A stretch of DNA of 64,000 nt. Source: Phyllobacterium chamaecytisi (lineage in GTDB: Bacteria > Pseudomonadota > Alphaproteobacteria > Rhizobiales > Rhizobiaceae). The position numbers and the translations under genes are program-made. Position 1 is the stretch's first letter; each line of letters begins with the position of its first letter. This document shows, one piece after another, positions 51,242-62,545 of this stretch. The notes under the pieces were generated by a model, which was not told the origin of the DNA, made no database searches, and saw nothing but the letters and a program-made list of their open reading frames with translations. The stretch is taken from contig NZ_JAIQWW010000016.1 in NCBI RefSeq assembly GCF_020164455.1, positions 62,001-126,000 on the forward strand. Direction: 5' to 3'.

Positions 51242-51348
51242 GCCGATCCTTTCCGAGAACGTGAAGCCCGACATCGCTTACCCGATTGCTTGAAATGTGT
51301 CACCCATGATCATCGGCGATTGTTTTGGATGGCAACATTGACATCATA

Positions 51349-51370
51349 CATATGAACAAGTATTTATATG
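51349..51370. promoter_or_regulatory. ArsR/SmtB-type operator before the zinc-efflux operon
   Basis: CATATGAACA-AG-TATTTATATG is an imperfect 10-2-10 inverted repeat (8 of 10 pairs). Spacing, AT content and the ATATGAACA half site are those of SmtB/CzrA-family operators. It sits 22 bases before the CDF start, in the promoter region of the operon that encodes its own ArsR-type repressor. Confidence 0.75.
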
Positions 51371-51392
51371 TTTGTCATTAATAGAGCAAGCT

Positions 51393-52400
51393 ATGTCACA
51401 TTCCCACGAAGGCCACGACCACGCGCCGAAGATCACGGTGGATAATCAGCGCAAGGTGTTGATTGCGTTTTTCATTACATTCGCCTTCATGATCGTCGAG
51501 GTCATCGGCGGTTTATTGTCCGGTTCGCTGGCGCTGATCGCCGACGCGGGTCACATGGTGACCGATGCCGCTGCGCTGGCTCTGTCCTATGCGGCATTCC
51601 ATTTCGGCAAACGGGCCGCAGATGAGCGGCGCACATTCGGCTATTTGCGCTTTGAAGTCATTGCCGGGCTGATGAATGCCATAGCGCTCTTCGCTATCTT
51701 GATCTGGATTACCATCGAAGCAATTGATCGCTTCCGCAACCCCGGTGAAGTACTGGCAGGGCCGATGCTGATCGTGGCGACGATCGGGCTTCTCATCAAT
51801 ATTGCCGTATTCTGGATTCTTACGCGCGGCGACAGCGACCACGTCAATATCAAGGGCGCGATCCTGCATGTGCTGGGCGATCTGCTTGGTTCCGTCGGGA
51901 CAATCATCGCCGCTATCGTCATCTATTATACGGACTGGACGCCGATAGATCCCATCCTCTCGGTCTTCGTATGCCTGCTTATCCTGCGCAGTGCCTGGGC
52001 ATTGCTGCGAAATTCAATGCATATTCTTCTCGAAGGTGCGCCGGCGAACGCCTCGCCGGAAGAGATTGAACAGCATTTGAAACAGACCGTCCCCGGTCTC
52101 GCCAATGTCCGGCACGTGCATGTCTGGATGATCACTTCGGGCAAGGCGCTTTGCACACTGCACGTTTTGCCTGCGCCGGACGCTGATCCAAGGCTGCTGG
52201 TCAAACGGGTCGAGATCGAGCTCAGGACGAAATTCGACATCGAACATTCGACAGTCGCTATCGATTGGCCGGACAACGCCGCGGACAACTGCTGCCTCGG
52301 AACGGAACCGGCTGATCACGGCCACGCTGATTCAAGTCACGATCACGCAGATCACAACCATGCGCCGTATAGTCATGGTCACGAGGATCATAAACATTGA
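51393..52400 (+). CDS. Cation diffusion facilitator (Zn2+ efflux), CzcD/ZitB type
   Basis: A 335-residue inner-membrane Zn2+/H+ antiporter with six transmembrane helices and a C-terminal cytoplasmic domain. The intramembrane metal sites are visible as DAGHMVTDA (helix II) and HVLGDLLGS (helix V), both His-x3-Asp pairs as in zinc-type CDFs. Both termini are histidine-rich (SHSHEGHDHAP and a long His/Asp tail). The ATG at 51393 is used; the open frame reaches back to a TTG at 51372. It is overlapped by the downstream ArsR gene, which probably represses it until zinc rises. Confidence 0.93.
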   Translation: MSHSHEGHDHAPKITVDNQRKVLIAFFITFAFMIVEVIGGLLSGSLALIADAGHMVTDAAALALSYAAFHFGKRAADERRTFGYLRFEVIAGLMNAIALFAILIWITIEAIDRFRNPGEVLAGPMLIVATIGLLINIAVFWILTRGDSDHVNIKGAILHVLGDLLGSVGTIIAAIVIYYTDWTPIDPILSVFVCLLILRSAWALLRNSMHILLEGAPANASPEEIEQHLKQTVPGLANVRHVHVWMITSGKALCTLHVLPAPDADPRLLVKRVEIELRTKFDIEHSTVAIDWPDNAADNCCLGTEPADHGHADSSHDHADHNHAPYSHGHEDHKH

Positions 52401-52711
52401 GCAAGGCAGCAATTCCATCGCAGCTCGATACGACGATCCTCGCAGAGACGTTTCGGCTGCTTGGCGATCCGACGCGGCTGCGCATCCTGTTCTTCTGCCT
52501 CGACGAGCCGAGATCAGTCGGTGATATAGCGACGAGCCTCGATCTGTCGCAATCGCTGGTAAGCCACCATTTGCGCCTGTTGCGCGGTGCACGGCTGGTA
52601 CGCGGCAACCGGCAGGCCAAGCAGATTTTCTATGAGCTCGCCGACAAGCATGTCAGCGACATGCTTGTCGATATGGCGCATCACGTTTGTGAAGAGAGCG
52701 GCGAGGATTGA
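52397..52711 (+). CDS. ArsR/SmtB-family zinc-responsive repressor
   Basis: A 104-residue winged-helix dimeric repressor. The DNA-reading helix is DLSQSLVSHHLRLLRGARLV. The C-terminal helix has Asp83, His85, His96 and Glu99 (DKHVSDML...AHHVCEE), spaced exactly like the alpha-5 zinc site of SmtB (Asp-x-His, then His-x2-Glu). No N-terminal arsenic or cadmium CxC motif is present. It starts with TTG overlapping the CDF stop, with GAGG eight bases upstream, so translation is coupled. It is expected to bind the operator at 51349 and release with zinc. Confidence 0.92.
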   Translation: MSKAAIPSQLDTTILAETFRLLGDPTRLRILFFCLDEPRSVGDIATSLDLSQSLVSHHLRLLRGARLVRGNRQAKQIFYELADKHVSDMLVDMAHHVCEESGED

Positions 52712-52761: not shown

Positions 52762-53775
52762 TCAGAACCCGGACAGAACAATCTTGCCCTTGGCGCGGCC
52801 GCTTTCTATGAATGCATGTGCTCTCTTGAGATTGGTGGCGTTGATCTTGCCGAAGTCATCGGCGAGAGTTGTTTTGATCGTCCCTTCGTCAACGAGTTCC
52901 GACACCTTGTTCAAAATTCGATGCTGAGCATCCATATCAGGGGTCTTGAACAGCGCCCGTGTAAACATCAGCTCCCAATGCAGCGATATGCTCTTGCGCT
53001 TCAACAACATGACATCGAGTGTCTTCGGATCATCAATCAGTGCGAACCGGCCCTGCGGCGCGATCAGCGTGGCGACTTCGGCAAGATGCGCGTCGGAGTT
53101 GGTGGTTGAGAACACGAATCCCGGAGCGTCTATACCCAGCGCTTCTACTTGTGCTGCGATAGGCCTTGAATGATCAATGACGTGATGAGCACCAAGCTCC
53201 TTGACCCAGGTCTTCGTCTCGGGACGCGATGCAGTGGCGACAACAGTGAGATTCGTCAGCTTCCTTGCAAGCTGAATGGCGATTGAACCTACACCTCCTG
53301 CCCCGCCGATAATGACAATGGCATTGGCAGCGCCGAGCACCGGCTTCTCGACATCCAATCGGTCGAACAGGGTTTCCCACGCGGTAATCGATGTCAGCGG
53401 TAAGGCGGCCGCGGCGCTGAAGCTCAGCGATGATGGTTTTTTGCCGACGATACGCTCATCGACGAGGTGAAATTCTGAGTTCGTGCCGGGACGATCGATC
53501 ACTCCAGCGTAGAACACTTCATCACCCGGCTTGAAGAATTGTGCCTCGGGACCCACTGCGGCTACAACGCCTGACGCATCCCAGCCAAGTACCTGGGGCG
53601 TTCCCCCTTCCGGTTTTACCCTGACCCGGACCTTGGTGTCGACGGGATTGACAGATATCGCCCTCACCTCAACCAACAGGTCTCTGCCACTTGCTTCGGG
53701 CTTCGGCAGGTTGATATCGACCAATGAAGTTTCAGCGGTGATGGGTTGTGATTCGAAATAGGCGACAGCGCGCAT
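52762..53775 (-). CDS. Zinc-type alcohol dehydrogenase-like / quinone oxidoreductase family protein
   Basis: A 337-residue MDR-superfamily NADPH-dependent reductase (ZADH/quinone reductase-like group). The N-terminal GroES-like domain has VLGWDASGVVAAVG, and the Rossmann nucleotide-binding motif is VIIGGAGGVGSIAIQLA. No structural zinc cysteines are seen. The likely job is reduction of quinones or reactive enals. It is divergent from an HxlR regulator across 100 bases, the standard arrangement for electrophile-stress control. Confidence 0.88.
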   Translation of the reverse strand: MRAVAYFESQPITAETSLVDINLPKPEASGRDLLVEVRAISVNPVDTKVRVRVKPEGGTPQVLGWDASGVVAAVGPEAQFFKPGDEVFYAGVIDRPGTNSEFHLVDERIVGKKPSSLSFSAAAALPLTSITAWETLFDRLDVEKPVLGAANAIVIIGGAGGVGSIAIQLARKLTNLTVVATASRPETKTWVKELGAHHVIDHSRPIAAQVEALGIDAPGFVFSTTNSDAHLAEVATLIAPQGRFALIDDPKTLDVMLLKRKSISLHWELMFTRALFKTPDMDAQHRILNKVSELVDEGTIKTTLADDFGKINATNLKRAHAFIESGRAKGKIVLSGF

Positions 53776-53827
53776 GGGCTTTCTCCAAATAAGTTGATCT
53801 GGGTCAGATGCGCCTTATGCTATGTAA

Positions 53828-53855
53828 GTGCAAGAATGCACATATATTGTATATA
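53828..53855. promoter_or_regulatory. Inverted repeats in the HxlR/oxidoreductase divergent promoter
   Basis: GTGCA-AGAA-TGCAC (53828-53841) is followed directly by TATAT-TGT-ATATA (53843-53855), both perfect dyads midway between the divergent genes. They are candidate binding sites for the adjacent HxlR protein. Inference from position. Confidence 0.5.
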
Positions 53856-53875
53856 GTGTCAAAAAGGATACCGTG

Positions 53876-54226
53876 ATGCCCCGCGTGCGCCACAAGACGT
53901 TTGATTGCTCCGCTGGCTGCCCGGTCGAAGGTGTTCTCAACTTGATCGATGGCAAGTGGAAAGGCGTGATCCTTTACCATCTCATGTCAGGTACGCTGCG
54001 GTTCAATGAAATTCGCCGCAAGCTAGTCAATGTCACGCAGCGCATGCTGACCAACCAGCTGCGCGAATTGGAAGCTGATGGGCTGATCATACGCAAGGTT
54101 TATGCCGAGGTGCCGCCCAAGGTCGAGTATTCGCTTTCGGAGCGCGGCCGTAGTCTGGAGCCGGTTATCAACGCCTTGAAGGCATGGGGTGATGCCAATC
54201 TCGCTGTCGACAAGGAAGCAGCCTGA
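53876..54226 (+). CDS. HxlR-family transcriptional regulator
   Basis: A 116-residue winged-helix regulator. The family N-terminus has the conserved cysteine region (FDCSAGCPVEGVLNLIDGKW), with Cys residues that could sense electrophiles or oxidants, followed by FNEIRRKLVNVTQRMLTNQL and EYSLSERGRSLEPV. The ATG at 53876 has AAGGAT upstream; the longer frame from 53828 would begin inside the operator region. It is divergent from the MDR oxidoreductase gene, its likely target. Confidence 0.9.
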   Translation: MPRVRHKTFDCSAGCPVEGVLNLIDGKWKGVILYHLMSGTLRFNEIRRKLVNVTQRMLTNQLRELEADGLIIRKVYAEVPPKVEYSLSERGRSLEPVINALKAWGDANLAVDKEAA

Positions 54227-61846: not shown

Positions 61847-62545
61847 TCAGCCTTTGTTCAAAGCGGCCTCGATGCGCCGCGACAGTTTTTCGACTGCGCT
61901 AGCCTCGGCTGTACCACGTGACGAAACCAGACAGGCTTCCGATTGGAGGATTATTCCGTCGTCAAGAACCTTGAGATGATTGGCTTGCAGCGTCGATCCT
62001 GTCGATGTGATGTCGACGATAATATCAGCCGAGCCCGAAGCCGGGGCGCCCTCGGTGGCGCCAAGACTCTCGACGATGCGATAGACCTGAATGCCATGCA
62101 TCTGCGAAAAGAACTGCTGTGTGAGACGCCAATATTTAGTGGCAATGCGCAGACGCCGGCCATGGCGCTGGCGGAAATCAGCGGCAACGTCATCAAGATC
62201 GGCCATGCTCGATACGTCGTACCAGACCTCTGGCACCGCGACCACAACGTCCGCTTGGCCGAAACCGAGCCGGGCTTCGATCTGAACACGCTCATCGGCG
62301 GACGACAAAGTCTCGCGGATCAGATCTTCACCTGTTATGCCCAGATCTACACTGCCATAGCCAAGCTCGCGTGCAATTTCGGATGCGGAGAGAAACAGTA
62401 TATCGATCTGGCTTTCGCCTTTGACCTGCGCCCGGTAGTTGCGTTGGTCCTTGGGGAGGATCACGCTGAGACCGGCGCTTTCAAGCACACCAAGCGCCTG
62501 ATCCTTGAGACGGCCTTTGGATGGAAGGGCCAAGGTAACCGTCAT
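61847..62545 (-). CDS. hisG: ATP phosphoribosyltransferase, short form
   Basis: A 232-residue catalytic subunit for the first step of histidine synthesis. It is the short form (no C-terminal ACT-like regulatory domain), which needs HisZ. It has the stretch [14 protein letters not shown] at the N-terminus, [10 protein letters not shown], and the PRPP-type region [17 protein letters not shown]. Its start overlaps the hisZ stop by four bases (ATGA). Confidence 0.95.

Follow-up and report, generated by a model that had tools for sequence, protein, structure and literature searches.

A probable zinc-efflux operon of the SmtB/CzrA type, with the exporter gene first, in Phyllobacterium chamaecytisi

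In Staphylococcus aureus, the czrAB locus (zntRA) brings together the zinc repressor CzrA and CzrB, a transporter of the cation diffusion facilitator (CDF) family, according to an excerpt of PMC5480029. The mechanism of CzrA is that of a repressor released by metal, and it responds to zinc and cobalt (excerpt of PMC7689651). In Synechococcus, SmtB carries the ligand pattern DxHx10Hx2E, which is the signature of the alpha-5 metal site, and its operator is a 12-2-12 inverted repeat (excerpt of PMC8790569). In Mycobacterium smegmatis, on the other hand, what SmtB represses is the CDF gene zitA, as an excerpt of PMC7174638 describes it. Among the matches listed from the open-licence literature, judged by title and by the start of the abstract, none describes an operon of this kind in Phyllobacterium.

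The locus presented here lies in a window of 64,000 nucleotides of P. chamaecytisi, the window being the whole stretch of DNA analysed (positions 62,001 to 126,000 of the forward strand of contig NZ_JAIQWW010000016.1, assembly GCF_020164455.1, 6.36 Mb in 93 contigs); all coordinates below are counted within it. Reading the sequence, we found a two-gene unit at 51338-52711, on the plus strand, in which the gene for a CDF cation-efflux transporter of 335 amino acids (51393-52400, with its ATG at 51393 and its TGA at 52398-52400) is followed by the gene for an ArsR/SmtB-family repressor of 104 amino acids (52397-52711). The two frames share 4 nt, and the CDF gene is preceded by a TTGACA box and an imperfect inverted repeat. 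We read this unit as very probably a zinc-efflux operon of the SmtB/CzrA type that regulates itself and whose two genes would be co-transcribed. On its 5′ side it neighbours a divergent gene for a HAD-IIA hydrolase, and on its 3′ side a convergent gene of the zinc-binding alcohol dehydrogenase family. The latter, on the minus strand, is adjoined by a divergent regulator gene (both within 52762-54226) that matches the models of the redox regulators RrpB and RrpA at 106 and 100 bits, below both cut-offs.

The transporter scores 274.3 bits with the superfamily model TIGR01297 (cut-off 82.35) and 152.5 bits with PF01545 (cut-off 26.6). Zinc-type CDFs have a metal site made of one HxxxD motif in TM2 and another in TM5. 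Here these are HMVTD (His54/Asp58) and HVLGD (His159/Asp163), which align with HLLID and HALGD of ZnT8, and the HxxxD/HxxxD site is invariant in all 39 distinct CDFs. Both tails of the protein are rich in histidine: residues 1-20 include 4 His, and the C-terminal 46 residues include 10. A first-pass annotation of this DNA had proposed a CDF with intramembrane His/Asp sites and His-rich tails, and the two motifs and the His counts confirm it. The best-scoring NCBIfam equivalog is ZitB, with 344.3 bits, short of its cut-off of 408. Among solved structures the top match is SLC30A10, a calcium/manganese antiporter, at 127.4 bits against 125.7 for ZnT8; the first site of SLC30A10 reads NxxxD where that of the window CDF reads HxxxD. 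Solved relatives also include SLC30A3 and other SLC30 zinc transporters, and YiiP/FieF match more weakly.

We consider it unlikely that, within the same architecture, Co(II)/Ni(II) or Cd(II) takes the place of Zn(II) as physiological signal and cargo. This possibility draws on the response of CzrA to both Zn(II) and Co(II) (excerpt of PMC7689651) and on a partial match of the CDF to DmeF, the Co/Ni model. That match, however, reaches 154.3 of the 250 bits needed, compared with 344.3 for ZitB. Moreover, the HxxxD/HxxxD site, which is the zinc type among CDFs, does not vary in the relatives examined, and extra ligands like those of NmtR would appear to be missing from the repressor.

As for a zinc-efflux operon, the remaining metal transporters of the genome bear on the role that its CDF would play. 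Three further CDF matches are present: one is MntE-like (435.3 bits, cut-off 500), one matches at the superfamily level only and the third has no NCBIfam match at 1e-20. Two P1B ATPases exceed the cut-off (L111 on G000:C5 and L112 on G000:C17), and both fit the copper model best, with 590.3 bits against 391.0 for the Cd-family model and 522.4 against 331.1, so that no ZntA-type zinc ATPase is evident in the genome. Likewise, no match to a CzcA-type RND pump in this genome exceeds the curated cut-off. Since the P1B ATPases are copper-like and no CzcA-type RND lies over its cut-off, the CDF of the operon would be a good candidate for the role of principal dedicated zinc exporter in this genome. 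The Cd-family model, TIGR01512, is non-discriminating because copper ATPases exceed its cut-off, and for that reason our statement on ATPases is confined to this genome. Of 19 same-genus genomes, 7 have an additional ATPase that this model scores at 517-528 bits and 2 more have one at 453-455 bits, so a zinc/cadmium ATPase may well exist in other members of the genus. A CzcA-type RND match in two pieces, the larger covering model positions 478-989 and lying below the cut-off, occurs at G000:C22:43686-45367 (L145) and may be a heavy-metal RND pump that is truncated or frameshifted.

The repressor scores 87.4 bits with NF033788 (cut-off 55) and 57.9 bits with PF01022 (cut-off 22), and both these profile models and a fold nearest to CzrA and SmtB identify it as an ArsR-type winged helix-turn-helix protein; it reaches the cut-off of no narrower equivalog model (CmtR, TsoR or BigR, for example). 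The alpha-5 ligand set, DxHx10HxxE/H, is present as Asp83, His85, His96 and Glu99, the very four residues that had been proposed at the outset, each found exactly in the 104-residue protein. All four are shared by 49 of 49 distinct homologues (81 rows), the homologues being the best 80 relatives and one of the six search patterns including H96 and E99. Within its own genome the window repressor is alone in carrying the motif among at least 19 ArsR-type matches (18 loci), the other 18 being without it; as 150 of 203 candidates were scored, these 19 may not be the full set.

By sequence, the nearest solved chains are CzrA and SmtB. An AlphaFold2 model of the monomer, built with 31 homologues (pLDDT 90.4), matches Zn-bound CzrA (6cdb) with Z 17.6 and rmsd 1.2 over 97 residues, and Zn-bound SmtB (1r22) with Z 16.5 and rmsd 1.4, also over 97 residues. 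Its final helix spans residues 84-101, and hence H85, H96 and E99 lie inside this helix and D83 just ahead of it; the alpha-5 site as such, being inter-subunit, is beyond the reach of a monomer model.

No CxC or CxxC occurs in the 104 residues, and Cys34 and Cys98 are the only cysteines. An alpha-3N sensor of the CadC/AztR type was discarded, the protein being without the alpha-3 Cys pair motif and the N-terminal Cys. Cys34 is found in 49 of 49 distinct homologues, a count that owes something to one search pattern with Cys34 in it (20 of the 49 rows); Cys98, placed between the ligands His96 and Glu99, occurs in 12 of the 49, namely the window and L013-L023. To our knowledge, CzrA has no cysteines like these two. 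It would be quite improbable, in our view, that the repressor is a dual sensor that perceives zinc through alpha-5 and a thiophilic metal such as Cd(II) or a sulfur/redox signal through Cys34/Cys98, in an operon replacing a ZntA-type zinc ATPase in this genome; both this reading and a BigR-like one were rejected, the repressor falling below the cut-off of the BigR model. Less probable still is a thiol/persulfide or redox sensor (BigR/SqrR/HlyU-like) that works by a Cys34/Cys98 switch and for which the alpha-5 site is secondary. The occurrence of both cysteines in homologues speaks for it, and so do HlyU, BigR and SqrR among the lower-ranked fold matches, but the first count is helped in part by the search pattern, the second residue is confined to the group just given, the BigR model yields 47.1 of 155 bits and the operon partner is a metal exporter. 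Furthermore, the fold Z scores are 17.1-17.6 for CzrA and 14.6-16.5 for SmtB, against 13.8-14.4 for HlyU and 12.1-13.3 for BigR and SqrR. Across the whole genome, the BigR model gives 11 matches, none of them over its cut-off.

For an alpha-5 metal repressor, which is the reading we retain, the expected operator is an imperfect inverted repeat of 12-2-12 form within the target gene's promoter, and such a repeat is found before the CDF gene. It lies at 51349-51370 and reads CATATGAACA-AG-TATTTATATG, exactly the 10-2-10 repeat of the first-pass annotation; 8 of 10 positions pair in this frame, and 9 of 12 in the 12-2-12 frame usual for the family, which is modest when taken alone. In a motif-free scan of the 110 bp preceding the CDF start codon it was the top-scoring 10-2-10 palindrome, ties being possible, and in several relatives (for example L015, L016, L020 and L022) the same scan chose another or a shifted palindrome. 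We then used as a motif the symmetrised left half of the window site, TATGAACA-N2-TGTTCATA. The window site agrees with TATGAACA-2-TGTTCATA at 14 of 16 positions and is equalled by 0 of 200 dinucleotide shuffles, a result that is not independent for the window alone because the motif derives from the left half of the same site; the pattern count at the window site is likewise not independent of it.

Independent support for the operator comes from its recurrence in relatives. We compared 38 distinct regions upstream of CDFs on loci with repressor homologues, the window included, obtained from the 48 of 80 loci that have a CDF after setting aside duplicates and one CDF on the opposite strand. 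In these regions, which are mutually non-independent as many come from near Phyllobacterium relatives, the best match to the motif scores 12/16 or higher in 36 cases; the other two have 11/16 and 10/16, and the 10/16 match is equalled by 12% of its own shuffles, all other matches by at most 3.5%. In 24 of the 38 the half-site is preceded by TTGAC at a distance of exactly 13 bases, as in the window, and in 4 further regions the distance is 14 or 15 bases. The repeat is therefore placed directly behind the -35 box and over the probable -10. In the window the -35-like box of the operon promoter is TTGACA (51338-51343, plus strand), and 17 bp past it starts TATTTA (51361-51366, plus strand), a possible -10 in the right half of the operator; this hexamer agrees poorly with the consensus, at 3 of 6 positions, and is absent from the list of a consensus promoter scan. 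The predicted operator would thus cover the spacer and this possible -10. Six of the 38 regions (L040, L065, L078-L081) come from loci with the reverse arrangement, the repressor homologue being upstream of the CDF, so the site accompanies the CDF gene in both gene orders, and among named relatives it recurs before the CDF as far off as Paracoccus, Sphingopyxis and Halomonas. Comparison thus supports 51349-51370 as a site, and the repressor would be expected to bind there.

Searching the genome with the operator pattern, which was built from the window site, returned four places, the site at 51349-51370 exactly and three others at 2 mismatches (7 strand-hits, against 4 for the reversed control). 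By eye, from the first residues of nearby frames, no recognisably metal-related gene lies near these three. A regulon extending beyond the operon is not supported by these matches.

The repressor frame begins with TTG at 52397, which overlaps the TGA of the CDF gene, in agreement with the earlier claim of a TTG start inside the CDF stop. It is the sole ATG, GTG or TTG candidate near the start of the frame, since an in-frame stop sits two codons before it. The same arrangement is seen in 17 of 20 same-genus genomes, in 13 of which TTG is the sole candidate; the other four also offer a GTG further in (2) or an ATG directly after the TTG (2), and the 3 remaining genomes have an ATG without such a TTG. 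The stop/start overlap is therefore a common theme and TTG its usual form. The accompanying idea that the TTG start keeps the repressor level low is weakly founded. The survey fits at least as well a constraint imposed by the overlap, with the CDF ending in His and then TGA, and the repressor level could just as well be set by translation coupled to that of the CDF.

At E 1e-20 the repressor is found in 20 of 20 same-genus genomes, our own included, behind a CDF in every one, and all 20 retain both the pairing and the alpha-5 motif. An even draw of 121 genomes of the family has it in 4, of which 2 belong to the same genus; outside the genus it is thus in 2 of 119 sampled family genomes. This difference suggests that the genus may have acquired the operon at its base or close to it. 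The nearest named loci, with 95-97% repressor identity, are those of Phyllobacterium trifolii, P. bourgognense and 'Candidatus P. onerii'. The HAD neighbour is seen at 12 of 20 same-genus loci (with a reach of about 1.5 kb upstream) and at 16 of the 27 named loci L013-L039, all 16 being Phyllobacterium or 'Rhizobiales bacterium' records; it is not seen at the Pseudogulbenkiania, Paracoccus, Sphingorhabdus and Sphingopyxis loci, which have 74-79% repressor identity. This comparison of loci would fit a single old acquisition in Phyllobacterium, at a fixed position, together with horizontal spread among Proteobacteria. A CDF was not found on the fetched DNA of 32 of 80 repressor-homologue loci, some of which end at contig ends. 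Sixteen records from different genera (Pseudomonas, Comamonas, Methyloversatilis, Stutzerimonas and others; L044-L050, L052, L054, L055, L058-L063) have a repressor homologue of 70% identity in every case, share the motif and the start pattern and show no CDF on the fetched DNA; this group looks like a recently spread metal-resistance module. That the pair is a relic or a chance neighbourhood without any regulatory link has no observation in its favour and is barely credible given its retention, alpha-5 motif included, in all 20 same-genus genomes and the presence of the operator before CDFs out to Paracoccus, Sphingopyxis and Halomonas.

An autoregulated zinc-efflux operon would work as follows. 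Without excess metal, the dimeric apo-repressor would sit on 51349-51370 and block transcription of both genes. When cytosolic Zn(II), or possibly Co(II) or Cd(II), rises, metal would occupy the alpha-5 sites at the dimer interface, each formed, if the geometry is that of CzrA and SmtB, by Asp83 and His85 of one subunit and His96 and Glu99 of the other. Metal binding would lower the affinity for DNA, the promoter would open and the CDF would be made, exporting the metal, presumably by proton antiport through His54/Asp58-His159/Asp163 as in the family. The repressor, probably translated from the same mRNA by coupling across the 4-nt overlap, would close the loop. Of the complete zinc-sensing efflux loop put forward in the first-pass annotation, the operator, the zinc-type CDF and the alpha-5 sensor are upheld by relatives and solved structures; its zinc-sensing part is to be read as a probable assignment, because CzrA, with the same kind of site, responds to Co(II) too. 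What the analysis yields is a well-supported annotation: the promoter is probably under metal control, the residues of the repressor's site are specified and the CDF is a zinc exporter candidate. The operon would be a compact zinc-responsive switch, and ideas on metal sensing are unchanged by it.

The operon belongs to a well-known type of system, in an exporter-first gene order. Among NCBIfam equivalogs its CDF scores best with that of E. coli ZitB (344.3 bits, below the curated cut-off of 408), and E. coli zitB is not known to be paired with an ArsR gene. With Synechococcus SmtB the window repressor shares the alpha-5 set and its spacing as well as an operator of the 12-2-12 type; the target of that SmtB is a metallothionein gene (smtA/smtB), in a divergent gene order, whereas here it would be a CDF pump in the same direction. 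As in Mycobacterium smegmatis SmtB-zitA, an ArsR-type zinc repressor would control a CDF zinc exporter, but in that species smtB shares its operon with zur, apart from the CDF gene, whereas in the window repressor and CDF form one predicted operon. S. aureus czrAB has in common with the window the combination of an ArsR-family alpha-5 repressor and a CDF, and CzrA is the nearest solved repressor both by sequence and by fold, the two proteins being 37-39% identical in the fold alignments. As fourth alpha-5 ligand CzrA has His, and the window repressor has Glu99, as in SmtB. Unlike czrAB, finally, the Phyllobacterium operon has the exporter first and the repressor second, joined by a 4-nt overlap and a TTG start.
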